Assembly: GCA_903830915.1 (NCBI GenBank)
Contig: CAIKVR010000279.1
Span: 1-38,102, forward strand
From: an uncultured Bacteroidales bacterium
GTDB lineage: Bacteria; Bacteroidota; Bacteroidia; Bacteroidales; Paludibacteraceae
Direction: 5' to 3'
Length of the DNA: 38,102 bases
The notes beneath the pieces were generated by a model that did no database searches, was not told where the DNA came from, and was given only the letters and a program-made list of their open reading frames with translations. Both the position numbers and the translations under genes were made by a program. This document shows positions 5,658 to 35,500 of the stretch, piece after piece (the first letter of the stretch is position 1; every line of letters starts with the position of its first letter).

Positions 5658-5796
5658 TTCATCTCCAACGCAAAGGGACTTTTCGGAAATAAGAATTTGA
5701 TTGCATTTAAACCTCTCAGCAATCGCGGCTGTGAAATTTTTCGTTGGGTAAGAGCGTGTGGAATACATAACAATTAAAAAAATTAAAAATTAAAAT
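5658..5796 (+). promoter_or_regulatory. Candidate structured leader upstream of rpsD (possible S4 autoregulatory leader)
   Basis: This 139-base spacer is far longer than most of its neighbours. It contains a nested pair of inverted repeats: outer CCAACG (5665-5670) with CGTTGG (5742-5747), and inner CAGC (5717-5720) with GCTG (about 5728-5731). It ends in an AT-rich run before the rpsD start. S4 is a known autogenous regulator of alpha operons, and S4-binding leaders have been proposed in Bacteroidia. The assignment to that class is inference from position and repeats only; no covariance model could be run. Confidence 0.45.
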
Positions 5797-18873: not shown

Positions 18874-19295
18874 AATTTTTTCAAAATAAAAGGGTAAATA
18901 AGATTAATGGAAATTGAAAATTAAAGGAATTATTTTTTGTAAAACAATTTTTGCTACAGAAAATGTAAGTTATACTATGCAAATGTAGGTAATTTTTTTT
19001 AATCAGCTTGTTTGTTAAGGAAAAATAATTAAATAGACTAATTGTTTGATTTGGTTAGTACATAATAAATAAGGATAAAAGCGAAAAATTCAACTTTAAT
19101 TGCTAAAACAGTTTTTTTATAAAAACTTTCATTTATATTTGCGCTATTCATATTTCAGAAAATTGTGTTTTAAGCACAAAAAGATAAAAATCAAACGTAA
19201 ATTCAAATAATTTGTAATAACTCCAATTATACAATTAATTTATTTTTTATCTTTGTGACCGAATTCAAAAAATTAATTTTTATATTCTCCAGCAG
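18874..19295. other. Divergent intergenic region between sensory and respiratory operons
   Basis: A 422-base, strongly AT-rich gap with no coding potential noticed. Half-promoter signals exist in both directions. The minus strand has CAAATGTA at 18980-18987 (TACATTTG when read on the minus strand), about 107 bases before the FIST gene. The plus strand has TATATTTG at 19134-19141 and TATCTTTG at 19248-19255, before the respiratory operon. No riboswitch or operator palindrome was recognised. Confidence 0.5.
19248..19255 (+). promoter_or_regulatory. Candidate -7 box of the respiratory operon
   Basis: TATCTTTG matches TAnnTTTG, the -7 consensus of Bacteroidota, and would start transcription about 35 bases before the ATG at 19296. 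No TTTG lies 19-21 bases upstream; the nearest is 33 bases away (19211-19214), so the call rests on the -7 box and position only. TATATTTG at 19134-19141 is an alternative. Confidence 0.4.
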
Positions 19296-20261
19296 ATGAG
19301 TGAGAACCAAGAAAAACCCAAAAAAAGAACACGTAGAGAGTTCATACAGGATTTAGGAATTGTAGGAATTGGCACCCTGATTGGCGGTTCAGCCATATTT
19401 GCAGGGGTTAATTATGATAAAAGAAAGAAAGCTGCCGAGCGCGTAAAAGTGCTTACTGCCGAAAATGAAGTGATGGAAGTTGAGAAAAGCGAACTGGCAA
19501 AGTCTGCCAAACCTGCTCTCGAAAATCTTACTTATTTGCAACAACAGGGGCGAGAAGGAATGGCTGGTAAACGATTTGTGATGATTATAGACCTGTCGAA
19601 ATGCCGCAACGCCCGCAAATGTATGGCTGCTTGCAACGAAGCTCACCACCTTCGCCCCGAACAACACCACATCAACGTACTGAAAATGCAGGATTCTGCC
19701 AATACGCCTGCCTATTATATGCCAAAACCTTGTCAGCATTGTGACAATCCGCCCTGTACGGCTGTTTGTCCGGTGGATGCCACCTTCAAACGTCAGGATG
19801 GCATTGTACTGATTGACAACGAACGCTGTATCGGTTGCCGTTTTTGTATTGCAGCTTGTCCGTACAGTGCCCGCGTGTTCAATTGGGCAGAACCAATTCA
19901 CTCGCTCGAAGACGAAGGCAAAGTTTATAATGTGGAATTAAATGTTCCGCAGAAAAAAGGTACTATCAGCAAATGTCTTTTCAGTGCCGACCGTGTACGT
20001 GAAGGTAAATTGCCATATTGTGTTTCGGCTTGTCCGAACGGTGTGTATTATTTTGGCGACGAAAACGAAGATGCCGTGACTAATGGAACTACCAAAGAAA
20101 CAGTTCGTTTCCGTAAATTACTGGAAGACAACGGCGGTTACACCCTGATGCCCGAACTGGGAACACATCCGCGTGTGTACTATCTGCCTCCGAAAGGGAA
20201 AGAATATCCGTTTCAGGAAAAAGATAAGGAAGAAGCAAGAGAAAGACTACACAATTCATAA
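19296..20261 (+). CDS. Tat-exported 4Fe-4S cluster protein (NrfC/HybA/PsrB-like)
   Basis: Periplasmic electron-transfer subunit of 321 residues. The N-terminus has a twin-arginine signal (KKRTRREFIQDLGIVGIGTL, hydrophobic to about 40). Four cysteine groups appear in the order known for dicluster ferredoxin subunits: CRNARKCMAAC (with wider spacing than the usual CxxCxxC), CQHCDNPPCTAVCP, CIGCRFCIAACPYSARVF, and CLFSADRVREGKLPYCVSAC. It can thus hold up to four 4Fe-4S clusters. It heads the operon, 95 bases before an NrfD-like quinol-site protein. In related complexes this type of subunit passes electrons between NrfD and a partner. No molybdopterin subunit is encoded nearby. Confidence 0.92.
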   Translation: MSENQEKPKKRTRREFIQDLGIVGIGTLIGGSAIFAGVNYDKRKKAAERVKVLTAENEVMEVEKSELAKSAKPALENLTYLQQQGREGMAGKRFVMIIDLSKCRNARKCMAACNEAHHLRPEQHHINVLKMQDSANTPAYYMPKPCQHCDNPPCTAVCPVDATFKRQDGIVLIDNERCIGCRFCIAACPYSARVFNWAEPIHSLEDEGKVYNVELNVPQKKGTISKCLFSADRVREGKLPYCVSACPNGVYYFGDENEDAVTNGTTKETVRFRKLLEDNGGYTLMPELGTHPRVYYLPPKGKEYPFQEKDKEEARERLHNS

Positions 20262-20297
20262 TTAATAATTCACAATTAATAATTAAGATTGGAAATT

Positions 20298-20322
20298 CTT
20301 GACAAGTCAAGCGGCAAAGCCG
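20298..20322 (+). promoter_or_regulatory. Two adjacent small hairpins in the FeS-nrfD spacer
   Basis: CTTGA-CAAG-TCAAG (20298-20311) is directly followed by CGGC-AAA-GCCG (20312-20322). The rest of the 95-base spacer is AT-rich (repeated AATTCAT/TAATTAATAATT). No T-tract follows, so termination is unlikely. An mRNA processing or stabilising role between the first and second genes is possible. Confidence 0.35.
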
Positions 20323-20356
20323 AGCAGAAAATTATATTATTGGAAATTGAAATATT

Positions 20357-21685
20357 ATGACAAAACAATCAAAAACAGATAAAATTACGTCCGATTTGCT
20401 GCGGCCAATCCGGTTGAACTGGAGTTTTAAAATTTGGTTTGGATTTCTGGGATTAGCGCTTCTGGTATGTTTGGGAGCGTATGGATTGCAGTTGAAAAAC
20501 GGTTTATCGGTAACCGGACTGGGAGATTATGTGTCGTGGGGTATGTATTTATCCAACTTCGTATTTTTTGTGGCTACCTCTTTAATCGGTATGCTTATCA
20601 GTGCAGTACTTGGACTTAGCGGTCAGAAATGGGCTGCACCACTGGCACGCATTGCCGAAATTATTGCGCTCGCATTTGCAGCAGTGGCAGGTTTGGTTAT
20701 TGTGATGGACATGGGGCGTCCCGAACGGTTGCTCAATGTATTTATTCACGGACGTGTACAGTCGCCCATTCTATGGGATGTGACAGTGATTACTATCTAC
20801 ATGGTAATCAGTGCCTTGTTTCTGTATATCCCGTTGATTCCCGATTTGAAAATTTGCTCTGAAAAATTGGATGTACCGCCTTTTCTAAAGAAAATCTACA
20901 AAATCCTTTCGTTGAATTGGGAAGGTACCATTGAACAGAAAAAAATGATTCAACAATCGACCCGTGTTATTGCCATTTTCATTATACCAGTGGCTTTAGC
21001 TATTCACACAGTTACGTCATGGCTTTTTGCAAACACAATGCGAGTAGGTTGGGATTCCACCATTTTCGGGCCTTACTTTGTAACAGGTGCTTTTGTTTCG
21101 GGAACTGCTGCGGTAATTATTGCCATGTATGTTTTCCGCAAAAATTATAAACTCGAGGAATATATTACCGAGAAACTTTTCGATATGATTGGTAAGTTGA
21201 TGGTGTTGGTTTCGCTGATATATCTGTATTTCAACCTGAATGAATACATGGTTCCGGGCTTCAAAATGAAGGAGATGGAAGCAATTTTGATTCGTGATTT
21301 ATTTTCCGGCAATCATGCTATATTGTTCTGGTCAGTTCAGTTACTCGGTCTTGTAGTGCCAATTATCCTGTTGTTATTCAAAAAAATGAGAAAACCGCTT
21401 CCAATGCTTGTGATTGGATTTATGGTATTGCTTGGCGCATGGTTTAAACGTTATATCATTGTAGTTCCAACTATGGAACACCCGTTTCTGCCCATTCAGA
21501 ATGTGCCACAAAGTTGGAAAATTTATACTCCTACACTTATAGAAATACTGGTAACACTTGCTCCGATGATTATGGTGTTGATGATTATCACCATTCTGGC
21601 AAAGGTAATTCCGATTGTTTCGGTGAGTGAAACCCTCGAACATCTGGAAAGCGTTGAACAGGCTGAAGGAGAATTGAAAAAATAA
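20357..21685 (+). CDS. NrfD/ActC-like membrane quinol-site protein
   Basis: A 442-residue integral membrane protein with about ten hydrophobic segments, matching the ten-helix NrfD/HybB/ActC type rather than the eight-helix PsrC type. Visible landmarks are SWGMYLSNFVFFVATS, MDMGRPERLLNVFIHGRVQS (typical of the superfamily), HTVTSWLFA and AWFKRYIIVVPTM. These proteins bind menaquinol/ubiquinol at the periplasmic side and hand electrons to an FeS subunit. Its place between the 4Fe-4S protein and a membrane cytochrome c suggests quinol oxidation feeding the oxidase encoded downstream. That direction of flow is inference from the operon. Confidence 0.9.
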   Translation: MTKQSKTDKITSDLLRPIRLNWSFKIWFGFLGLALLVCLGAYGLQLKNGLSVTGLGDYVSWGMYLSNFVFFVATSLIGMLISAVLGLSGQKWAAPLARIAEIIALAFAAVAGLVIVMDMGRPERLLNVFIHGRVQSPILWDVTVITIYMVISALFLYIPLIPDLKICSEKLDVPPFLKKIYKILSLNWEGTIEQKKMIQQSTRVIAIFIIPVALAIHTVTSWLFANTMRVGWDSTIFGPYFVTGAFVSGTAAVIIAMYVFRKNYKLEEYITEKLFDMIGKLMVLVSLIYLYFNLNEYMVPGFKMKEMEAILIRDLFSGNHAILFWSVQLLGLVVPIILLLFKKMRKPLPMLVIGFMVLLGAWFKRYIIVVPTMEHPFLPIQNVPQSWKIYTPTLIEILVTLAPMIMVLMIITILAKVIPIVSVSETLEHLESVEQAEGELKK

Positions 21686-21716
21686 ATATTTAGGTCCTAT
21701 ATCAATCTGACTACTT

Positions 21717-22625
21717 ATGTACAATAGAAATTTTAAAATAGTTGCCCTTGCTGTTGTTTCAGTATTTTTCCTGCAAACCTTTGCTCAGAATAACTGGAAT
21801 GTACCTGCCGATAAAAAAGCCAAAAATAGTTATATCAAATTCGATGCTGCATCAGCAGGTCAGGGTGAAGCCATTTACAATAAAAACTGTGCTTCATGTC
21901 ACGGAAATCCGGGCAAAGGCAATGTTCAGAAAACACTAAATCCTATTCCTCCTGATTTATCTTCAATTGGAACGCAATCACTTACTGATGGTGAATTATT
22001 CTACATCTTGTCATCAGGACGTGGTTTGATGCCTAATTTTAAAAGCATGCTTTCGGATGAAGAACGCTGGAAAGTGATTTCGTATATCCGCAGTTTCAAT
22101 AAGGGTTATGTGCAGACACTTTCCAAATTTGACCCCAACAAAGCCAAACTAATAAAGGTTAGCACCAATTATGACCGGAAAACCGCACAGGTGAAAGTAG
22201 ATGTAAAAGTGAATGAGAAATCGGGAATTGTTGCTTTGAAAAATGCGGAAATTGGATTGTTTGTAACCCGCTATTTCGGCAAACTGCAGATTCAGAAAAA
22301 TCAGCTTACCAATGCCGATGGTCAGACAGTTTTTGATTTCCCGAAAGATATTCCAGGCGACAAAACCGGAACTGTCGAACTGGTAGTGAAACTGAATGAC
22401 GAAAACTACGGTGAAATAGAATCTTCGACCAAACTGCAACTGGGCGTGCCAACCGATAAACCTGCACTAACCGACAAACGGGCTATCTGGGGAACTTTGG
22501 CAAAAGCTCCTTTCTGGATTATTTTACTTTATTTGGCTGGTGTGTTTGCATTTGGTGCTGTGTTATTGTATCTGATTTTTGCGCTCAATAAAATTCGCAA
22601 ATCGGGTAGCAATAAACCACAATAA
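21717..22625 (+). CDS. Membrane-anchored monohaem cytochrome c
   Basis: A 302-residue protein. A signal peptide (about 1-23, VALAVVSVFFLQTFAQ) is followed by a class I cytochrome c domain (about 40-130) with the haem motif C58-A-S-C61-H62 and a likely Met ligand in GLMPNFKSM. A beta-rich domain of about 130 residues (about 140-255) looks Ig-like. One C-terminal membrane helix (about 265-290: FWIILLYLAGVFAFGAVLLY) anchors it on the periplasmic side. It lies 31 bases after the NrfD-like gene and is the probable electron carrier from the FeS/NrfD unit to cytochrome oxidase. Confidence 0.9.
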   Translation: MYNRNFKIVALAVVSVFFLQTFAQNNWNVPADKKAKNSYIKFDAASAGQGEAIYNKNCASCHGNPGKGNVQKTLNPIPPDLSSIGTQSLTDGELFYILSSGRGLMPNFKSMLSDEERWKVISYIRSFNKGYVQTLSKFDPNKAKLIKVSTNYDRKTAQVKVDVKVNEKSGIVALKNAEIGLFVTRYFGKLQIQKNQLTNADGQTVFDFPKDIPGDKTGTVELVVKLNDENYGEIESSTKLQLGVPTDKPALTDKRAIWGTLAKAPFWIILLYLAGVFAFGAVLLYLIFALNKIRKSGSNKPQ

Positions 22626-22635
22626 AACTAAAAAT

Positions 22636-23412
22636 ATGAAGAGTAACTTTCTTTCTATTGCAGCAGTTTGTTTGCTTTTAAGCTTACAAACAGCATTTTC
22701 ACAGGTTGATCAGTCGGGTGAGGTAGGCGTGTACGAGCATTTGGGAACTACGTTGCCACTCGATCTGAAATTTGCCACTGATAAAGCTGATTCGGTTACA
22801 CTCCGTCAACTCATTACTAAGCCAACAATTTTGTCGTTTGTATATTTCGATTGTCCGGGGCTTTGCAGTCCGCTACTCGAAGGAGTAGGGGATGTTATCC
22901 GCAAAACGCCGACAGAGGTATTAGGCAAAGATTATCAGGTAATTACGATTAGTTTCAACTACCGTGATACGCCGCAGAAAGCAAAAGACAAGAAAAATAA
23001 ATTTGTAGAACGTTACTCGAAGAATCATGCCGATGGCTGGATTTTTCTAACAACTGACAGTTCAACAATTTTCAAGATAACAAATGCAACCGGTTTCAAA
23101 GTAAAAGCTGTGGGATTGGACTTCGTTCATCCGTCGGCAATTATTGCTGTAAGTCCTACCGGGAAAATTACACGTTATCTGTATGGAATCACATTCCTGA
23201 CTTCTGATTTTAAACTGGCAATTATCGAAGCCGGCAAAGAACAAGCCAGACCAACGATTCAAAAGTTGTTGTTGATGTGTTATACTTATGATCCTGAGAA
23301 CAAACGATTCGCATTGGATGTTACTAAAATTGCAGGAACAATGATCGTATTTTTCATTGCAGTATTTTTCATTGTTTATATTTTAAGACCAAAAAAGAAA
23401 AATCAAAACTAA
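22636..23412 (+). CDS. SCO1/SenC-type copper chaperone
   Basis: Thioredoxin-fold protein that delivers copper to, or maintains, the CuA site of cytochrome oxidase. The preferred start at 22636 gives 258 residues and a clean signal peptide (MKSNFLSIAAVCLLLSLQTA, cleavage near FSQ). An in-frame ATG at 22579 would overlap the preceding gene and is less likely. Copper ligands are visible as C73 and C77 (CPGLC) and H165 (DFVHPSA). A C-terminal membrane helix (about 228-250) is followed by a basic tail. It lies 10 bases after the cytochrome c gene and 6 bases before oxidase subunit I. Confidence 0.93.
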   Translation: MKSNFLSIAAVCLLLSLQTAFSQVDQSGEVGVYEHLGTTLPLDLKFATDKADSVTLRQLITKPTILSFVYFDCPGLCSPLLEGVGDVIRKTPTEVLGKDYQVITISFNYRDTPQKAKDKKNKFVERYSKNHADGWIFLTTDSSTIFKITNATGFKVKAVGLDFVHPSAIIAVSPTGKITRYLYGITFLTSDFKLAIIEAGKEQARPTIQKLLLMCYTYDPENKRFALDVTKIAGTMIVFFIAVFFIVYILRPKKKNQN

Positions 23413-23418
23413 ATTTAT

Positions 23419-25029
23419 ATGAGTAAAGAAGTCGGAAAAACCGAGTATGTAAGTTATCTCGACCATCAGGGCCAATATAAAGGCATTTTTGCCTGGATTT
23501 TTGCCACGGATCACAAACGCATTGGCTTGCTTTATATGTATGCCATTGCTGCATTTTTTGTTATCGGAGCCTTTCTGGGTTTAGCCATGCGAATTGAATT
23601 GATTGCGCCGGGCGAAACCATTATGAAACCACAAACCTACAATGGCATTTTTACTGTTCACGGTATTATCATGATTTTCATGGTGGTAATTCCGGGCTTG
23701 TCGGCAGTTTTTGGTAATTTCTTTTTACCTATAATGATTGGTGCAAAAGACGTTGCTTTCCCTAAACTGAACCGTTTCTCATGGTGGATATTCATGATTG
23801 GTAGCGTGATGGCTGTACTTTCACAATTGTTGAAAAGCGGCCCTCCGGATACCGGTTGGACATTTTATGCACCTTACAGCACCACTACCGGAACCAATGT
23901 AATTATGGCAACTTCAGCGGCTTTTGTGCTTGGTTTCTCATCCATTCTTACAGGGCTAAACTTTATTGTAACCATTCACCAAATGCGTGCTCCGGGCATG
24001 AAATTTTTCAACATGCCACTATTCCCCTGGGCAATTTATGCTACTGCATGGATTCAGTTGTTGGCAACACCAATAGTAGGTATCACATTAGTTATGCTTA
24101 TTGCAGAAAGACTATTCGGAATAGGGTTCTTCGATCCGGCATTGGGAGGTGACCCGCTGCTGTATCAGCACCTTTTCTGGATTTATTCACATCCGGCCGT
24201 TTATGTTATGATCCTGCCTGCCATGGGAGTTATTTCGGAAGTAATTCCTACTTTCTGTCAACGTAAAATCTATGGTTATAAAGCCATTGCACTTTCAAGT
24301 TTGGCAATTGCTGGTGTGGGATTCCTCGTTTGGGGACACCACATGTACACCTCGGGTATGAGCGAACAGGCTCGTTGGTTCTTCTCATTGCTGACATTTA
24401 TTGTTGCAGTTCCGAGTGCTATTAAGGTATTCAATTGGTTGTCAACCATGTACAAAGGCTCTATTGATATGCAACCGCCATTTCTGTATGCAGTTTCGTT
24501 TATCTTTCTGTTTATTATTGGTGGTACTACCGGTTTGATTTTGGGCTCGGTGGCAACTGATGTTCAGGTTCACGATACTTCCTTTGTTGTAGCGCACTTC
24601 CATTACATTATTTTTGGTGGTATGGGCTTTGCATTTTTCTCGGCCATTCATTATTGGCTACCCAAAATGTATGGCAGAATGTATAATATCAAACGTGCTA
24701 AGTGGGCTTGGGGATTCCTGTTTTTTGGATTCAACTTGTTGTATTTCCCGCAGTTTATAATTGGAATTCAGGGAATGCCACGGCGTTATTACGATTATTT
24801 GCCTCAATTCCAGTGGGCTCAGGTTATTTCAACAGTTGGAGGTTTCATAGTTGTTAGTGGTATTTTGATGATGATCTCCAATCTGATTGCCGGTGTGAGT
24901 AAAGGTGAAATTGCTACTGCCAATCCATGGCATGGCTCAACCCTCGAATGGCAAATTCCATCACCTCCATCCCTGGAAAATTTTGACGAAGATATTATTG
25001 TAAAAGAAAATCCGTACGATTACGAATAA
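23419..25029 (+). CDS. Haem-copper cytochrome c oxidase subunit I, A2 type
   Basis: Catalytic oxygen-reducing, proton-pumping subunit with about twelve membrane helices (536 residues). Ligands are visible: H81 (FTVHGII) and H395 for the low-spin haem, H393 for the high-spin haem (VVAHFHYIIF), and CuB ligands H258 (YSHPAVY), H307 and H308 (WGHHMY). Y262 is the cross-linked tyrosine. The YSHP motif in place of a glutamate marks the A2 subfamily, as in Thermus caa3. Subunit III begins 12 bases downstream. In this operon the usual II-I order is reversed: subunit II is encoded last. Confidence 0.97.
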   Translation: MSKEVGKTEYVSYLDHQGQYKGIFAWIFATDHKRIGLLYMYAIAAFFVIGAFLGLAMRIELIAPGETIMKPQTYNGIFTVHGIIMIFMVVIPGLSAVFGNFFLPIMIGAKDVAFPKLNRFSWWIFMIGSVMAVLSQLLKSGPPDTGWTFYAPYSTTTGTNVIMATSAAFVLGFSSILTGLNFIVTIHQMRAPGMKFFNMPLFPWAIYATAWIQLLATPIVGITLVMLIAERLFGIGFFDPALGGDPLLYQHLFWIYSHPAVYVMILPAMGVISEVIPTFCQRKIYGYKAIALSSLAIAGVGFLVWGHHMYTSGMSEQARWFFSLLTFIVAVPSAIKVFNWLSTMYKGSIDMQPPFLYAVSFIFLFIIGGTTGLILGSVATDVQVHDTSFVVAHFHYIIFGGMGFAFFSAIHYWLPKMYGRMYNIKRAKWAWGFLFFGFNLLYFPQFIIGIQGMPRRYYDYLPQFQWAQVISTVGGFIVVSGILMMISNLIAGVSKGEIATANPWHGSTLEWQIPSPPSLENFDEDIIVKENPYDYE

Positions 25030-25041
25030 AATAAACTTGTT

Positions 25042-25656
25042 ATGAGTGAAAAACATCATGTAGAAGAACACCGGGACGACGAAGCCAAAAAATTAGGCAT
25101 GTGGTTGTTTATTTTCACCGAGCTTTTGTTGTTTGGTGGATTGTTTATAGTGTATTCCATATTCAGATTTGAGTATCCCAAATGCTTCCGCGAAGGTAGT
25201 CTGGAATTGAGTGTAACCATTGGAGCTGTTAATACCATTGCACTGCTCATTAGTAGTATGACTGTGGCCATGGCACTTACTGCCGTTCAGAAAGGAAATA
25301 AAAAACTGGCTTTACAGCTAATTGCTGTTACCTTGCTTTTGGCTCTGTTATTTTTGGTAAACAAATACTTCGAATGGGGACATAAGTTTGAAATGGGATT
25401 ATATCCCGGATCGGAGACAATGAAACATCTCGACCGTGGTCATTTGTTGTATTTCAGTCTCTATTTCTTTATGACCGGATTACATGCTTTACACATAATA
25501 ATCGGTATGGTGCTGCTTTTTATTTGTATTTTTAAAGTAAAGAGTGGGAATGTGCACACAAAGAATTATTCATTTATGGAAAACGGCGCACTTTACTGGC
25601 ACCTTGTGGATTTAATTTGGATTTTCCTGTTCCCGTTGATGTATCTGATTTCATAA
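25042..25656 (+). CDS. Cytochrome c oxidase subunit III
   Basis: A 204-residue membrane protein with five hydrophobic segments, the short bacterial form of subunit III. Typical features are KKLGMWLFIFTELLLFGGLF near the N-terminus, a central segment (LLFLVNKYFEWGHKFEMGLY), and FMTGLHALHIIIGMV followed by YWHLVDLIWIFLFPLMYL at the end. Subunit III stabilises the catalytic core and the oxygen path. It lies between subunits I and IV. The soluble N-terminus is rich in His, Glu and Asp (EKHHVEEHRDDEAKK). Confidence 0.95.
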   Translation: MSEKHHVEEHRDDEAKKLGMWLFIFTELLLFGGLFIVYSIFRFEYPKCFREGSLELSVTIGAVNTIALLISSMTVAMALTAVQKGNKKLALQLIAVTLLLALLFLVNKYFEWGHKFEMGLYPGSETMKHLDRGHLLYFSLYFFMTGLHALHIIIGMVLLFICIFKVKSGNVHTKNYSFMENGALYWHLVDLIWIFLFPLMYLIS

Positions 25657-25673
25657 CTTTAAACACTCCAATT

Positions 25674-25958
25674 ATGGCAAATAACACATCACATACAACC
25701 GAATATAAAGTATTGGTACGTGTACTACTAATACTAATGACCATGACTTTGCTAACCATTAGTGTTACTACATTAAATTTGGGTGCATTCAGCGTAACAG
25801 TGGCATTGCTCATAGCCTGTTTTAAAGGGTACATGGTTCTATCTTATTTCATGCACTTAAAATACGAAAGTCTTTTGCTGCGAATATTGGTGGGAATGGT
25901 ATTCGTGCTTTTTGCACTGCTGGTTCTTATCACCTTTATTGATTATGCATACCGGTAA
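25674..25958 (+). CDS. Cytochrome c oxidase subunit IV (prokaryotic type)
   Basis: A 94-residue membrane protein with three hydrophobic segments. The start at 25674 (MANNTSHTTEYKVLVRV) is chosen because it lies 17 bases after the subunit III stop; an in-frame start at 25617 would overlap that gene. KGYMVLSYFMHLKYE between helices two and three matches the prokaryotic COX4 family. The role is accessory: assembly or stability of the oxidase. Confidence 0.9.
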   Translation: MANNTSHTTEYKVLVRVLLILMTMTLLTISVTTLNLGAFSVTVALLIACFKGYMVLSYFMHLKYESLLLRILVGMVFVLFALLVLITFIDYAYR

Positions 25959-26015
25959 TCAAATTAATTTCAGAGAATTGTAAACTGTAAATTATAAATT
26001 GAAAATTAAATAAAA

Positions 26016-26930
26016 ATGTTCAGTAACGCATCAAATTTTGTTCATGGAGTTGATAATGCCTTTGCGCTGATATTTGGAATATCATTATTCTTTTTGGTTA
26101 CCCTTACAGGAACGATGATTTATTTTATCATCAAATATAACCGTAAACGTCACCCGAAAGCCGAACAGGTGAAAGATAATATGTGGCTAGAAGTAACATG
26201 GACCGGTATACCGCTGATATTGGTTTTTATCATGTTTTATGCCGGTTGGGAGGGCTTTTTGCCCATGCGTATAGTTCCAAAAAACACTATGCATGTGAAG
26301 GCTGTTGCCAAAATGTGGAAATATACATTTGAATATGAAGGGAATAAAGAATCTGACACACTTGTATTAGCTGTAAACGTACCCGTGAAAGTTGATTTGT
26401 TTTCCAAAGATGTGCTTCATGGATTTTCCATTCCTGCATTTCGAATCAAAGAAGATATAGTGCCATTTAAGAATAATTATTCATGGTTTACTCCAGGCGA
26501 AATAGGCGATTTCGAATTGTATTGCACCGTGTATTGTGGTGTAAGTCATTCGTATATGTACACAACTGTACGCGTTATCGATCAGCAATCCTTCAAAAAA
26601 TGGCTTGCAAATTTACCCGAAAAGAAAGCAGATAATAATCTGGGACGTATGGCAATAGAGAAAAATGGCTGTACAGCTTGTCATTCGTTAGATGGAGCCA
26701 AAATTGTAGGTCCTACATTTAAAGGATTGTATGGTTCAACCCGCTCGGTAACTACAAACGGTCAAAAAAGAACCTTAATTGCTAATGAAGATTATATCAA
26801 AACGTCTATAACTGAACCCGATAAAGATGTTGTTACTGATTTTCCTCAGGGAGTAATGAAATCATACAAAGGAACAATCAATGACAAAGAAATTCAACTA
26901 ATTACGGATTATCTGAAAACCCTGAAATGA
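26016..26930 (+). CDS. Cytochrome c oxidase subunit II fused to cytochrome c (caa3 type)
   Basis: A 304-residue protein. Two N-terminal membrane helices (about 15-42 and 60-82) are followed by a periplasmic cupredoxin domain with the CuA ligands C170, C174, H178 and M181 (YCTVYCGVSHSYM). A C-terminal cytochrome c domain has the haem motif C219-T-A-C222-H223, with a likely Met ligand in QGVMKSY. The fused haem makes it a caa3-type oxidase able to accept electrons from the membrane cytochrome c. It lies 57 bases after subunit IV and overlaps ctaB by 4 bases (ATGA). Confidence 0.96.
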   Translation: MFSNASNFVHGVDNAFALIFGISLFFLVTLTGTMIYFIIKYNRKRHPKAEQVKDNMWLEVTWTGIPLILVFIMFYAGWEGFLPMRIVPKNTMHVKAVAKMWKYTFEYEGNKESDTLVLAVNVPVKVDLFSKDVLHGFSIPAFRIKEDIVPFKNNYSWFTPGEIGDFELYCTVYCGVSHSYMYTTVRVIDQQSFKKWLANLPEKKADNNLGRMAIEKNGCTACHSLDGAKIVGPTFKGLYGSTRSVTTNGQKRTLIANEDYIKTSITEPDKDVVTDFPQGVMKSYKGTINDKEIQLITDYLKTLK

Positions 26931-27820
26931 AATTAAATATACTATCAATCCTAAAATCAATCACTTTAAAATCAGTACTTTCACTAATTAAATACCGTGT
27001 TTCTATAGCTGTTTCATTTACAGCAGTTACGGGATATGTAGTTTACACAGGTCATGTGGATTTCAGGGTGCTTTTGGTTGCATTAGGTGTTTTCTTTTTT
27101 GCATCAGGTGCAAGTGGACTCAATGAAGTTCAGGAGCATAAATATGATGAAGTGATGAATCGAACCAAAAACCGTCCGATTCCTTCGGGTCAGCTTTCTC
27201 CACAGATTGGATTTATCATCTCATTCTGGTTCATTAAAGCCGGATTCACTATCCTGTTTCTTGCTTTTGGAATTATTCCTGCCTTGCTTGGTCTGCTGAA
27301 TATATTCTGGTACAATGGAGTTTACACCTATCTCAAAAGGGTTTCTTCATTCGCTGTAGTTCCGGGTTCGGTAGTGGGTGCAATTCCGGCTTTTATTGGC
27401 TGGACGGCAGCAGGCGGCAAAATGTTTGATCCAACCATAGTTTCCATTGCTTTCTTTCTGTTTATCTGGCAAATACCTCACTTTTGGTTGTTGATGATGA
27501 AATACGGTGATGAATATGAACTGGCAGGATTTCGTACTATAAATCAGGCCATACATACAGCCAATCTGAAGAAAGTAATTTTCACCTGGGTGGTAGCCAC
27601 TTCGTTGATTTCCATTGCTATACCATTATATCTGACACATCTTTCATGGACTTTTTTTGCAATAGTTTTTGTCCTTAATATTCTTTTTATCGGACTTTTT
27701 ACCTTATTGGCTTTCGGGAAACAAACAGAAATGAATCTAAAGAAGTCATTTATTGGCATCAATATTTACATGATGGTTTTTATGCTTATGCTGATTATTT
27801 TTCATGTGTATATTGCCTGA
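26927..27820 (+). CDS. ctaB: Protohaem IX farnesyltransferase (haem O synthase)
   Basis: A UbiA-family membrane prenyltransferase that converts haem B to haem O, the first step toward haem A. The 297-residue protein has about nine hydrophobic segments, and its active-site region is visible as GLNEVQEHKYDEVMNRTKNR followed by PIPSG. WYNGVYTYLKR and PGSVVGAIPAFIGWTAAGG are further family motifs. Its start overlaps the subunit II stop, implying coupled translation. No haem A synthase (CtaA) is encoded in this window, so the cofactor could be haem O, or CtaA may be encoded elsewhere. Confidence 0.94.
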   Translation: MKLNILSILKSITLKSVLSLIKYRVSIAVSFTAVTGYVVYTGHVDFRVLLVALGVFFFASGASGLNEVQEHKYDEVMNRTKNRPIPSGQLSPQIGFIISFWFIKAGFTILFLAFGIIPALLGLLNIFWYNGVYTYLKRVSSFAVVPGSVVGAIPAFIGWTAAGGKMFDPTIVSIAFFLFIWQIPHFWLLMMKYGDEYELAGFRTINQAIHTANLKKVIFTWVVATSLISIAIPLYLTHLSWTFFAIVFVLNILFIGLFTLLAFGKQTEMNLKKSFIGINIYMMVFMLMLIIFHVYIA

Positions 27821-29413: not shown

Positions 29414-29583
29414 CAGAGTTTTCCATAATAGCCTCATGAAAATAGAAAATTCTAAGAGTAATCTTTTTCAAGATGATAAAACTCTCACCACGAGCCTGAT
29501 TATAGAAAATTAATGAATTTGAATTAGCGGTTATGGTTTTTATGTCGATAAATAGAATTACAAAACATATAGAGAATACAACG

Positions 29584-32500
29584 ATGAAGAAAAAAAATTC
29601 TGAAGCTGTATCTGCAAGGATTCCGGGTATTCTCGGTGTTCTTATCTTGCTATTATATTTCAGCATTAATACATTAAGTGCAACAACATATTATTCAAGA
29701 GCAACAGGTAACTGGAATACAAATACCACATGGTCATTAACATCGGGTGGTTCGGCAGTTAGTGCTGGCATATATCCAATTGCTGGTGATATTGTATACA
29801 TTCAAAATAACCGAACAGTAACTGTAAATGCAACTGCAGCTTGTGCGGATGTGAATATTGCTACTGGTTCTGCTCTGACTATAAACGGATTCAATTTCAC
29901 CTCCTCAGGAACAACAACTGTAAGTGGTACTTTAACCCACACAAGTACTACCGCCACTAAAACTTTTAATAATGTTGTTATTTCAGGGGGTACTTGGACA
30001 AACAATGCTTCTGAAAGCTACACCATAGCAAACTTAACACTTTCTGGCTCAACAATTAACGGTACAGGTACAGGAGTGTTCAACGTAACAGGTGCATTGA
30101 ATGTAGCTTCAGGAACAAATACCATGAATGCGATGACCATCACCGTTGGTGGCACAACGACTGTTCAGGGAACGCTTGTTTTTGCCAGTACAACAGGGAA
30201 TAAAACATTTGGCAACGTAGTTTTATCGGGTGGCACCTGGACCAGTAATGCCGCTGAAACCTACCCTTGCACCAATTTAACGCTTTCCGGTGGTACAATA
30301 ACAGGTTCGACAACCGGCACATTTACTGTCAGTGGAAATTTGGCTGTAACTGCTGGGTCTGTCAATAATTTATACGCTTTTAACTTAACTGTTAACGGTG
30401 TAACGACAGTTGATGGTTCTGCTGTTTTCCTAAGTGCAACGGGAACAAAAACTTTTGTTGGGCTAACTACTGTTAGTTCGACCGGAACATGGGACAATGA
30501 CAATGTAGTTGAACCAATAAACTTTCGGGGCGGTTTAACGAATAACGGTGTGTTTTTTGCAGGGACTTCCGTTTACACCTTCAGTACCAATACTCAAACC
30601 ATTAACGGAACACTATCAATACCAAATATTACAGTAACTGGTGTGACGGTTACTAATAATGGAAACCTTACTATACCTACAGCACTCTCAGGAACTGGAG
30701 CATTGACTAATTCAGCAACCGGAACATTAAACATAGGTGGCACTTCCGGAATAACGACGCTTACAGCCACTGCGGTTGGTAATATAGTTAATTATAATGG
30801 TGCGGCTCAGACTGTAAAAGCTACCACGTACAATAATCTAACTCTTTCAGGATCCGGCACAAAAACAAACACAGGTACTACAGTAACTGGTGTTCTTTCG
30901 ATTGAAGGTACAGCAGCTCCTTCAACTGCCCCCACATGGTCGGGGACAGCCTATACACTACAATACAAAACAACGGATGCTCATACTGCGGGAACAGAAT
31001 GGATAAGCCCCTTTGCAGGCTCAGGCGGGGTTATTATTGCAAATACTGCCGGTTCAGTAACAATGAACTCGGTTGAAGTTATGGGAACATCTGTTCCGTT
31101 AACTATTAATTCCGGTGCTACTTTGGCAACCGGAAATTTTCAGCTTACACTAGGAGGAAATTTCATTAATAATGGTGGAACATTTACTGCCGGAAGTTCG
31201 CCAATTGTTATTACCGGTACAGCAACTCAAAGTATTGCCGGATTTAGTAGTACCGGAGCAGTTTCATCAACCAAAACAGGCGGGATTGCTACTTTTGTCG
31301 GTAATGTAAATGCAGGATCACTTACAATGAATGGTTTGGGAGGCACGATGAACTTAGGGTCTGGATTAACACATACTATAAGTGGAATATGGACGAGAAC
31401 AAACGGTACATTAGATGGTGGTTCAAGTGTAATAAAATTTGGAAGTAGTGTTAGTGGTAATGGTGGTGCTTTTACAGCCAATACAAGTACAGTTGAATGG
31501 AATGCTACAGGAGCTCAAACTATTCCTGCTTTAGCATATTATAATTTAACTCTTTCGGGAAGTGGTGCTAAAACTTTATCGACCGGAACAACAATTCAGA
31601 ATAATTTTGCGACTGCTGGTACTACAACGACTACGGCAGTTGAAGCTATGACTGTAGGAGGTAATTTTACTATTGGTACTGGAACTTCATTCTCGGCAAG
31701 TACATTCACCCATAATATTGCAGGTAACTGGTCAAACACGGGAACGTTTAATGCAAATACAAGTACAATTAACCTAAATGGAACAACACAATCCATAACA
31801 GGAGCTACCTCATTCAATAATTTAACTTTGAGTGGAAGTGCTACAAAATTTTTTACTAATGCAATAACTACAACTGGAAGTTTTACAATAAACAGTGGAG
31901 TAATAGCCAATCTGGGAACCGGATTAACCCATTCAGCAAATACACTTTCTATTGCAGGAAGTGGACAACCAGCCGGTTCGTGGGGTGGTGTGGGTTCAGC
32001 AGCTACATTTATCAATTCTACTTATTTTGCTCCTGCATCAGGAACTTTAAATATTACATCAGCCACATGTGTTGCCGGTTCATGGACAGGTTTGGTAAGT
32101 ACCGACTGGAATACTGCAACCAACTGGTGCGATGGAGTTGTACCAACTTCTTCGACCAATGTAATAATCAATTCCGGTGGAAATCAACCGGTTATTAATG
32201 CTGCATCGTTTTGTAATAATATCACTGTAAATGCTGGTGCTTCATTGACAATAGCAGGAACAAATTCACTAACAATTAACGGGTCTTGGACAAATAGTGG
32301 AACTTTTACAGCCAATAGCGGAACTGTAATTTATAATGGAACTTCACAAACAGTTGTACCAGTAAATTACTATCACCTTACTCTTTCAGGCAGTGGTACA
32401 AAAACCTTACAATCAGCAACAACAACGATTGGTGGCGATTTAACCTTGAGCGGAACTGTATCATCGACTGCTGTGGTTGGTTTGACAATAAATGGGAATA

Positions 32501-35500
32501 TGACCATTGGAACTGGTACAACATTTATTGCCGGAGCATTTACACATAACGTAAAAGGAAACTGGTCAAATGGTGGTATATTTACTGCTACCGGATCAAC
32601 AATTAATCTTAACGGTGATGTTGCAACAACTATTAGTGCAAGCAATTTTAACAATATTTCAATAAGTGGTTTAGGTACAAAAACTGCAACCGGTACGCTG
32701 TCAATAGCGGGTAATTTTAATTTGAGTTCGGGAGGTTTAGCATTTAACAATGCTACTTCAAATGCCATATCAATTGCTGGAAATTACACACAGTCGGGTG
32801 GTGTTTTTGATTTTAATTCAAATGCTACAGGTAGTAGTTCAATGACTTTGAATGGGAATTTTAGTCAGACATCGGCTGTAGGAAGCATGACTACTACTGG
32901 TGCAGGTGCTCCTAATGGAATTATAACTTTTAATGGTTCAGGTACACAAACTATTAGCACTTCAACTCCCGGAAGTTGTATTTGGGTAAAATACATAATT
33001 CCTGTTGGAAAAACAGTTCAATTACTTTCAAATTTCACAATAAGTAGTGCCGATCTTGCAACACAACCAACATACCAAGGTGAGATAAATGTCAGCGGAA
33101 CTTTTGATTTTGGTACTTATGTGGTTTCTCAAGTAGATGGAGTACCAGGTACGGCCATGTTCACATTAAATTCAGGTGCAAATTTGATTACTTCAAATGC
33201 CACAGGATTGACCGGGTCAATTTTTGCTACTAACATGACCACAAATTTAAGCAGCGCTGCAAATTATGAATTTAAAGGTGCTTCAACCGGTACATTTACA
33301 ACAACTCCTACAGCAAATACCGTAAATAATCTAACATTTAGCGGTATAGGAACAACAAGTTTAGGTTCTGATTTTACAACAAATGGAGCGTTAACCGTTA
33401 ATAGTGCTGTGAATTTATCAATGTCAACCTATTTATTGACCTTAAATGGCAATTTTATTAACAATGGAACTGCAAGTGGAACAACCGGTGGAGTTACAAT
33501 TGGAGGAATAGGAACACAAAGTATAGCCGGATTTACAACCACCGGTGGAGTTACCTGCAGCAAATCAGCAGGGGTTGCTACATTGACAGGGAATATAAAT
33601 GCTGCTTCGCTGACCAATTCAACTGCTGGTGGTACACTTAATTTAGGTAGTGGACTTACCCATACTATCTCAGGTGCATGGACACGTATTGCCGGAACAC
33701 TTGACGGTGGTTCAAGCACATTGAATATCGGAGGTACGGTAACCAATACAGCAGGAACATTTACCCCTTCAACCGGTACAGTGAATTATACTGGTGCAGC
33801 TCAAACCATTGCTGATGTAAATTATTACAACCTGACCTTCTCGGGAAGTGCAGCTAAAACAATGGGAGCTAATTCAACAACCATTGGTGGTAATCTTACA
33901 CTGAGTGGAACGGCATCAGTTACTCCTGCTGTTGCACTTACCATTTCAGGAAATTTGACAATTGGTTCAGGAACAACCTTTACAGCAGGCAGCTTTACAC
34001 ATAACATTGGAGGTAACTTTACTAACAGTGGAACATTTACTCCCACAACAAGTACAATCAACCTGAATGGTACAACACAATCGCTTAGCGGCGCAACCAC
34101 CTTTAACAACCTGACATTGGCTGGAAGTGGCACTAAAACTTTTGCAAATAATACAACAACAAACGGCAATTTCTCTATAGCAAGTGGTGCGGTAGCTAAT
34201 CTTGGAACAGGTCTTACACATACTGCTTCAAATCTTTATCTGGGCGGAACGCAACAAAGTTCATCCACCTGGGGTGGTACTGGCTCAGTGGCAGATAATA
34301 TTAATACAACCTATTTTGCTGCGTCTACTGGTATTATTAGTAATCTAAAGAACTGGACCGGTAATACAAGCACTGACTGGAATTTGGCAACTAACTGGTC
34401 GGATGGTAGAATTCCAACATCAACAGATAATGTAATTATACCTAACGTAACTAACAAACCGATTATCGGAGCATCTGCCAGCTGTAAAAATATCACTATC
34501 AATACCGGTTCATCCCTTACAATTACTGGAACCAATACACTGACAGTTTCGGGTAACTGGACAAACAACGGTACATTTACTGCTAACAGCAGTACCGTAT
34601 TGTTTACAGGTGGAACACAAACTATCGTTGGAACAAACACTTTCAATAACCTCACTGCTGGTGGCACAGGACTTAAAACATTCTCTACCAATCCAACAGT
34701 AAATGGTATTCTTTCGATGGAAGGAACCGGAACAGTTTCTGCTGCTCCTACTTATGGAACTGCTGCAACTTTACGGTATAATACAACCACTGCCCGAACA
34801 GCAGGAAGTGAATGGATTACACCTTTTGTGGCAACCGGTGGAGTGATTATTGGCAGTACGGGTGTTATTTCACTCAACAGTGCCGAAGTAATCAATGCTC
34901 CTCTTACCATTAATTCAGGATCAACATTAAATACTACCTCTGCCAATAATTACGCACTTACTTTTGGCGGAAACTTTACTAATAATGGTACGCTTACTGC
35001 AAATGCCTCTCCTATTACTATTACAGGAACGGCAACTCAAAGCATTGCAGGATTTACTACTACAGGAACTGTTTCATCTACTAAAACTGGTGGTATTGCA
35101 ACTTTATCAGGAAATGTTTCAGCAGGGAGTTTGACAATTAATGGTGCCGGGGGAACATTAAATCTTGGAACAAGTTTATCCCATACAATTACAGGTGATA
35201 TATTAATTACAACAGGAATACTTGACGCTGGTTCAAGTATTATTACTACTTCTGGTAATTGGACTAATAATACATGGTCTTCATTTACGCCTGGATCAAG
35301 TACCGTATATATGACTGGTACTGCTAAAGCTATTGGAGGTATCGCCCCAACTACATTTAATAATTTGACTGTTTCCAGCGGCTCAACTACATTAAATGGA
35401 AATGGAAATATCGCAGGAAATCTAACCATAAACAGTAATGCTACATTAACGAATAGTTCAACATATACACTTTCTGTTACAGGTACTACAACAATTTCGG

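Follow-up and report, generated by a model that had tools for sequence, protein, structure and literature searches.

A conserved Fe-S protein, NrfD and cytochrome c gene trio beside a caa3 oxidase: a candidate compact quinol:cytochrome c oxidoreductase of Bacteroidales

Models of aerobic respiration recognise two kinds of quinol:cytochrome c oxidoreductase, the cytochrome bc1/b6f complexes and alternative complex III (ACIII). Pairs of an Fe-S protein and an NrfD membrane protein that have no molybdenum subunit (NrfCD, SirCD, MccCD) serve multihaem cytochromes and anaerobic reductases. Here we describe a 38,102-base stretch of DNA (referred to as the window), which is one whole contig (G000:C279) of a metagenome-assembled genome (MAG). 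In it, a Tat (twin-arginine translocation) Fe-S protein, an NrfD protein and an anchored monohaem cytochrome c are encoded at the start of a caa3 oxidase operon. Judged from their sequences, these three genes (the trio) probably encode a compact membrane (mena)quinol:cytochrome c oxidoreductase that takes the place of complex III.

Several described systems come close to the trio. In Shewanella, the FeS-NrfD pair SirCD can take over the quinol dehydrogenase role of CymA (PMC11434368). Within Qrc, the redox dimer that reacts with quinone is QrcCD; Qrc takes up protons from the cytoplasm and does not pump, while pumping by NrfD in ACIII is proposed but, according to the same source, lacks experimental confirmation (PMC13059093). 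The NrfCD of Melioribacter (PMC3534657) and modules of MBNT15 (PMC9386147) are molybdenum-free FeS-NrfD units proposed to act as quinol:acceptor reductases; they differ from the trio in their proposed electron acceptors, multihaem cytochromes and iron. Melioribacter pairs ACIII with its oxidases (PMC5492636). Cbc4 (CbcSTU) of Geobacter, named a menaquinol:ferricytochrome c oxidoreductase, likewise combines an Fe-S protein, a membrane protein and a cytochrome c, and its CbcT is called homologous to DsrO. However, a CbcS-similar protein is placed in the cytochrome c3 family, and the passages on Cbc4 mention no link to an oxidase. Among the complexes listed in the relevant part of an NrfD census (PMC8076601), none consists of an Fe-S protein, NrfD and a monohaem cytochrome. 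In the open-access literature (PMC), judged mostly by title or the start of the abstract and with subscription papers mostly outside it, we recognised no description of the trio with an oxidase.

The plan of an Fe-S protein plus NrfD without a molybdenum subunit is thus known already, and the window follows it, with a Tat Fe-S protein that has four cysteine groups (two cysteines being replaced) and an NrfD. Unlike NrfCD, SirCD and MccCD, the trio has a monohaem, anchored cytochrome and lies most often beside an oxygen reductase. It resembles ACIII in its presumed job, in an NrfD nearest to ActC among Protein Data Bank (PDB) entries and in a cytochrome nearest to ActE by fold, and ACIII too is often encoded beside oxidase genes. 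It differs from ACIII in having no ActA, molybdopterin-like domain or ActD, in having one NrfD instead of two, and in the separate clade of that NrfD. Cytochrome bc1 would do the same presumed job, but no cytochrome b was found in the MAG; the molybdopterin catalytic subunit of the complex iron-sulphur molybdoenzymes (Psr/Dms/Ttr) was not found there either. The first two proteins resemble DsrOP, scoring 184.3 bits against DsrO (cut-off 200) and 119.8 bits against DsrP (cut-off 350). Both scores are below the cut-off, however, the operon has no DsrMKJ, and DsrP is far from the window NrfD in the tree. On our best reading, the trio would work like ACIII without being one, as an elaboration of the NrfCD/SirCD plan. 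The monohaem outlet, the link to haem-copper oxidases and, across much of an order, the substitution for ACIII appear to be new.

The MAG comprises 4.74 Mb in 436 contigs and is 87.26% complete and 4.88% contaminated. Ribosomal-protein, secY and rpoA genes share the contig with the operon, which is therefore chromosomal. Profile searches of the MAG gave one NrfD match (PF03916; positive in 4 of 14 control genomes) and one haem-copper oxidase match (PF00115; 8 of 14), both inside the window. Cytochrome b (PF00033) and molybdopterin oxidoreductases (PF00384) gave no match in the MAG, while 8 and 11 of the 14 controls, respectively, were positive. An ActB query met only the Fe-S protein of the window, at query residues 745–986 of 994 (two of four candidates were scored). 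PF03916 revealed no second NrfD that could be ActF, although a divergent ActF could escape this model; the operon contains no multihaem ActA, which was not searched for genome-wide. Since the NrfD is the only one and no ActB, cytochrome b or molybdenum enzyme was found, the trio is the only visible quinol-to-oxidase route in the assembled part. An earlier note on this DNA had claimed that neither bc1 nor a molybdopterin subunit accompanies the oxidase. This holds across the assembled 87% of the genome, where neither a complete act or bc1 operon (within the same ActB scoring) nor a molybdopterin partner for the Fe-S protein was found.

The distribution of the trio was examined in 295 genomes of the order of the window, its own genome included; judged by the named relatives, this order is Bacteroidales. 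Genomes and loci of our samples carry G and L numbers. The NrfD proteins fell into rough bands of identity to that of the window: type I (48–75%), type II (34–42%) and ActC (27–33%), the last identified from act neighbour genes. A cut-off of 48% for type I left out G022 (42%); the partial matches in G014 and G243 were included, and a fragment of 49% in G263 was not taken as an extra locus. Type I NrfD was thereby found in 65 of the 295 genomes, at 69 loci. PF00115 matches of at least 300 bits were taken as cytochrome-type oxidases; fragments in G164 and G228 were dropped, as were matches of about 215 bits in frames of about 750 residues, presumably nitric oxide reductases. Frames of some 900 residues that matched cytochrome b were not counted as bc1; in the type I group lacking ActB these were in G020, G217 and G231. 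For each genome, the ActB search scored two candidates, a real ActB being expected to rank first, and matches reaching the N-terminal part were listed as ActB, some of them partial or divergent (G014, G037, G215, G228, G243, G263). Picking the NrfDs of the ActC band by eye, among them a fragment of 38% identity in G228, led to the same 48 genomes.

A cytochrome-type oxidase was present in 96 of the 295 genomes. Type I NrfD without ActB or a bc-sized cytochrome b was found in 44 of these 96. ActB without type I was found in 33 (7 of them with a bc-sized cytochrome b), both in 11 (5 with a bc-sized cytochrome b), type I with a bc-sized cytochrome b but no ActB in 4, and none of the three in 4. 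In this last group, the size of the subunit I frames of G184 (679 residues) and G219 (697 residues) suggests quinol oxidases, which need no complex III. Oxidases occurred in 59 of the 65 type I genomes and in 37 of the 230 others (59, 6, 37, 193; Fisher 2e-29, descent ignored). Type I and ACIII were largely complementary in distribution: the type I by ActB table within oxidase genomes was 11, 48, 33, 4 (Fisher 5e-12, descent ignored). This exclusivity persisted when one random genome was drawn from each of 55 families: for the latter test, the median p of 500 draws was 3e-8 and the worst 2e-5. At completeness of at least 90% and contamination of at most 5%, 40 of 84 oxidase genomes had type I alone and 29 had ActB without type I. 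Among the Marinifilum and Ancylomarina records, L080, L081, L088 and L111 hold a full ActB as well, and in one genome a type I trio is followed directly by an act cluster (ActA, B, C, D, E, F-like; L117 5402–17180).

A scan of named genomes gave at least 491 relatives, of which the best 80 loci were kept, with Marinilabilia, Geofilum, Marinifilum, Ancylomarina and Paludibacter entries among them. Where the flanks sufficed, the Fe-S gene lay upstream of NrfD in 73 of 77 loci and the cytochrome gene downstream in 73 of 77. At two of the four loci where the cytochrome gene was missed (L078, L099), tblastn was positive; in the first 29 relatives' loci it detected the Fe-S gene 27 times and the cytochrome gene equally often. 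So conserved an order indicates that the grouping is more than chance. The partners in these best 80 loci were caa3 (55), cbb3 (8), nap (2) and nar (1), with no partner in 3 and a contig cut in 10; L083, labelled caa3+nar, was counted as nar, its oxidase-like match being 22% identical. At none of the 80 was an Act protein the best label.

In Marinifilum flexuosum (L080), the trio stands at the head of a cbb3 operon (CcoNO 1245 bits). It is followed by napA, napG and napH at L107 (1405, 321 and 342 bits) and, by similarity to L107, at L111, and it lies upstream of a dihaem cytochrome and narG at L130 and L131. At L132 (G176) a cbb3 operon with the trio at its head runs divergently from a caa3-act cluster, and G268 is similar by position. 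Of the 26 loci counted as lying within 7 kb of a caa3 gene, two may therefore be no true pairs. Oxidases and NapA need quinol-derived electrons, and a trio beside them therefore fits a quinol dehydrogenase module; its linkage to cbb3, nap and nar at the same time weakens the view that it is dedicated to oxygen. The earlier note had suggested that these genes could form a minimal enzyme of this kind, which would pass electrons from quinol to cytochrome c and be paired with the oxidase. This guarded reading is supported, as far as the searches for act, bc1 and molybdenum enzymes and the NrfD tree described below extend, with two corrections: the separate clade of the window NrfD speaks against a stripped-down ACIII by descent, and trios that head cbb3, nap and nar clusters are at odds with a module dedicated to one oxidase. 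Type I NrfD also occurs alone, after nar and transporter genes, as an orphan quinol-binding subunit with neither Fe-S gene nor cytochrome (L077 9989–11314, L083 10001–11314, L183 from 9402).

In a phylum sample of 395 genomes, nine others had an NrfD of at least 48% identity, most of the other matches listed belonging to the ActC band. At all eight loci looked at in these nine genomes (L174–L181), the product of the third gene has no haem, and within four genes there is one for a small monohaem cytochrome; L128, inside the order, has a similar arrangement. The cytochrome of the window looks like a merger of the two. A plasmid search gave 35 records, all below 60% identity, the eight listed being at 28–30%.

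It is conceivable, though we are inclined to doubt it, that the trio is a general quinol dehydrogenase feeding a periplasmic cytochrome pool, and that adjacency to caa3 reflects co-regulation and not a dedicated complex; this would change only the last step of our reading. The occurrence of the same trio beside cbb3, nap and nar, and the haemless third subunit and separately encoded small monohaem cytochromes of the out-of-order relatives, fit such a role. Against it, the NrfD copies tend to subgroup by partner in the tree described below: a nap-linked group at 100/99, two nar-linked pairs at 100/99 and 100/100 and, more weakly, the cbb3-linked copies at 88/87, one solitary copy included. Moreover, with a membrane anchor on the cytochrome and a haem c in subunit II itself, there is no need for a soluble carrier.

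The best PDB sequence matches of the window NrfD were four ActC chains, and it aligns with ActC from end to end. This alignment, together with the 9–11 hydrophobic stretches of its homologues, is consistent with the ten helices predicted in the earlier note. At the ActC quinone site (His139, Ser164, Asp169, Asp253), Ser136 and Asp141 of the window align with Ser164 and Asp169. Asp118 takes the position of His139, and Asp is also found there in QrcD, DsrP, HybB and Wolinella PsrC. An invariant Arg365 aligns, by count, with ActC Arg394, presumably the gatekeeper Arg that papers number 395.

An NrfD tree was built from 65 rows, among them 10 ActC, 9 type II, 2 act-like and 39 type I rows, with DsrP as the far group; QrcD, PsrC, SirD, CbcU, E. 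coli, ActF and ActF-like rows lie outside it. A 100/100 branch split the type I rows, out-of-order relatives included, from ActC, which grouped with the multihaem-linked type II and the act-like NrfDs; row L127 fell on the latter side. DsrP, one row of which is a long branch, attached on the type I side, so that it depends on the root whether type I forms a single clade. In a superseded tree, flawed by two wrong DsrP frames and by very long branches, the E. coli proteins HybB and NrfD had joined two DsrP rows on the type I side of the split from ActC, at an unsure position. The earlier note had suggested placing the window NrfD among its relatives in this way; long branches separate it from DsrP, and HybB, on a very long branch, was present in the superseded tree only. 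As far as these sequences tell, the window NrfD belongs to a clade separate from ActC, and ACIII by descent was rejected on this ground.

The Fe-S protein has a twin-arginine motif and 14 cysteines that are invariant in 23 aligned sequences. It holds 14 of the 16 usual cluster cysteines. Compared with NrfC, HybA, DsrO and the ActB C-terminus, the second cysteine is replaced by Ala106 in group I and by Ser230 in group IV, while at the group III site this protein has Cys181 where ActB has Thr. The group IV cysteine is kept in the sole type II row and the sole out-of-order row of the alignment. In NarH, loss of the second group IV cysteine gives a membrane-proximal 3Fe-4S cluster; by analogy, our guess is that 3Fe-4S clusters might be present here too. 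The closest PDB match was Thermus NrfC/PsrB, and the top NCBIfam model was DsrO, at the score given above. An AlphaFold model (pLDDT 44.6) was not used.

In the cytochrome, CXXCH and Met105 are invariant in 37 sequences. Its model (pLDDT 90.5, pTM 0.68) consists of a haem domain, a beta-sandwich (about 146–240) and a terminal helix (266–298). Foldseek returned ActE of Roseiflexus ACIII as the top match (6lod_E; E 8e-6, 95 columns) and cytochrome c552 as the second (E 4e-5). The ActE match is limited to the haem domain (residues 49–129 by sequence), the overall architecture being different. In 31 of 71 loci the cytochrome gene is directly followed by the gene for a small membrane protein (L033 12317–12703 and relatives), and in 24 by SCO. 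The small protein was taken for DoxX-like; it has no NCBIfam match and is absent from the window.

We find it very unlikely that the trio is a degenerate ACIII which has lost ActA, ActB1, ActD and ActF. The best PDB matches (ActC by sequence, ActE by fold) could be read in this way, and ACIII genes adjoin oxidase genes in other bacteria too (PMC3534657), but the 100/100 branch, the Asp in place of His139, Ala106 and Ser230 where ActB has Cys, Cys181 where it has Thr, and the restriction of the ActE match to the haem domain all argue against such an origin. We give equally little credence to a trio that runs in reverse or serves as another redox device, for example in a Qrc-like reduction of quinone from a periplasmic donor, with caa3 fed otherwise. 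The related FeS-NrfD dimer of Qrc does reduce menaquinone (PMC13059093), but 44 of the 96 oxidase genomes would then be left without a visible quinol-linked feeder, and the trio shares its operon with a terminal oxidase. That a complex III sits in the unassembled 13% of a genome in 436 contigs is hardly credible, since the same absence is seen in 15 of 30 oxidase genomes at least 98% complete and at most 5% contaminated (type I alone), in the single-contig genome G214 (no ActB or bc-sized cytochrome b) and in the records of Marinilabilia rubra and Geofilum rubicundum, which carry the trio next to caa3 (L098, L106) and where the ActB query met Fe-S-domain matches only and cytochrome b was not searched.

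According to the preferred reading, (mena)quinol would be bound and oxidised in NrfD at the periplasmic side. The electrons would pass from NrfD to the Fe-S clusters of the Tat protein and from there to the one haem that the anchored cytochrome carries. Through direct contact with the oxidase, this haem would deliver them to haem c/CuA of subunit II and thus to oxygen, SCO and CtaB presumably serving to mature the oxidase. Because there is no haem b, no bifurcation is expected. The trio may conserve energy, and NrfD may also move protons.

A number of observations weigh against this reading. Two cluster cysteines are missing from the Fe-S protein, NrfD has Leu223 where ActC has Asp253, and the top PDB sequence match of the cytochrome is Thioalkalivibrio cytochrome c552, ActE being fourth. 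The MAG is only 87% complete. Among the 65 type I genomes, 11 also hold ActB, 4 more a bc-sized cytochrome b, and 6 show no oxidase; 35 of the 69 type I loci lie more than 7 kb from an oxidase gene, some owing to contig ends. The nap loci carry their own NapGH. Lastly, five type I loci lie beside nar, and at three of them a lone NrfD is next to NarI, itself able to oxidise quinol.

We lean, with some reserve, towards a wider claim, namely that an Fe-S protein, NrfD and an anchored monohaem cytochrome make up a third class of complex III. Among Bacteroidales with an oxidase, this class would be more common than any other quinol:cytochrome c oxidoreductase, and it would serve as a plug-in module that has been recruited next to four or more kinds of terminal reductase (caa3, cbb3, Nap and Nar). 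If so, it would be a third kind of such enzyme, of three subunits, with no haem b and no molybdenum-like domain. It would explain how electrons flow from quinol to oxygen in Bacteroidales that have a cytochrome oxidase but neither known complex (the above 44 of 96), and annotation would cease to label such chains incomplete. It would also offer a very small system for asking whether NrfD subunits pump protons.

The nine co-directional genes of the operon (19296–27820) and their products, named by Pfam and NCBIfam profile searches, are listed in the table.

Table. Genes of the operon in the window
Product	Position	Strand	Basis
Tat-exported 4Fe-4S protein, 321 aa, DsrO/PsrB/NrfC/ActB-C-terminal-like	19296..20261	+	Fer4_11, twin-arginine motif
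NrfD/PsrC-family quinol-binding membrane subunit, 442 aa	20357..21685	+	PF03916 125 bits (cut-off 25.8)
Monohaem cytochrome c, 302 aa, C-terminal membrane helix	21717..22625	+	one CXXCH (CASCH)
SCO1/SenC copper chaperone	22636..23412	+	24.3 bits (cut-off 22.8), synteny
Oxidase subunit I, A2 type	23419..25029	+	COX1 510 bits, YSHPAV
Oxidase subunit III	25042..25656	+	COX3
caa3 oxidase subunit IV	25674..25958	+	COX4_pro; TIGR02229 above cut-off
Oxidase subunit II, CuA motif + C-terminal haem c domain	26016..26930	+	COX2 + cytochrome c
Haem O synthase CtaB	26927..27820	+	UbiA

The identities and the place given to the nine genes in the earlier note were borne out by these matches. The SCO call has no NCBIfam match and is weak by itself, but is backed by synteny; the UbiA protein scored 190.5 bits with the CtaB model TIGR01473, slightly below the cut-off of 210.3. 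The COX1 translation carries YSHPxV, which we take to be the mark of A2-type oxidases, and that of COX2 a CXXXCXXXHXXM CuA motif plus a CXXCH domain. The oxidase is accordingly of the A2-type caa3 kind, as had been claimed. The most likely start codons are ATG 22636 for SCO and ATG 25674 for COX4, the mechanical frames beginning earlier, at TTG.

About 40 bases upstream of the start codon of the Fe-S protein lies TATCTTTG (19248–19255), which in our view resembles the minus-7 promoter element of Bacteroidota. Scans of the window for promoters (36 sites, 39.0 in shuffles) and terminators (13, against 7.8 in shuffles, sd 3.1) were not used. No tRNA gene was found in the window, and the sole Rfam match at gathering score was an S4-Bacteroidia ribosomal leader RNA (5699–5731). 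Downstream of ctaB, a repeat-rich open frame of at least 2856 residues (29533–38100) runs off the contig end and probably encodes a secreted surface protein.

Two kinds of more distant relatives were also seen. At L118, L120, L122, L124 and L126, FeS-NrfD modules of type II, in which the third subunit has no haem, lie close to a gene for a seven-haem cytochrome and may possibly serve electron transfer to metals or to the cell exterior. In other parts of the phylum there are Act-like clusters whose NrfD is 39–40% identical to that of the window (L182, which is the same place as L142, and L143); the one at L182 includes an 11-haem cytochrome as well.

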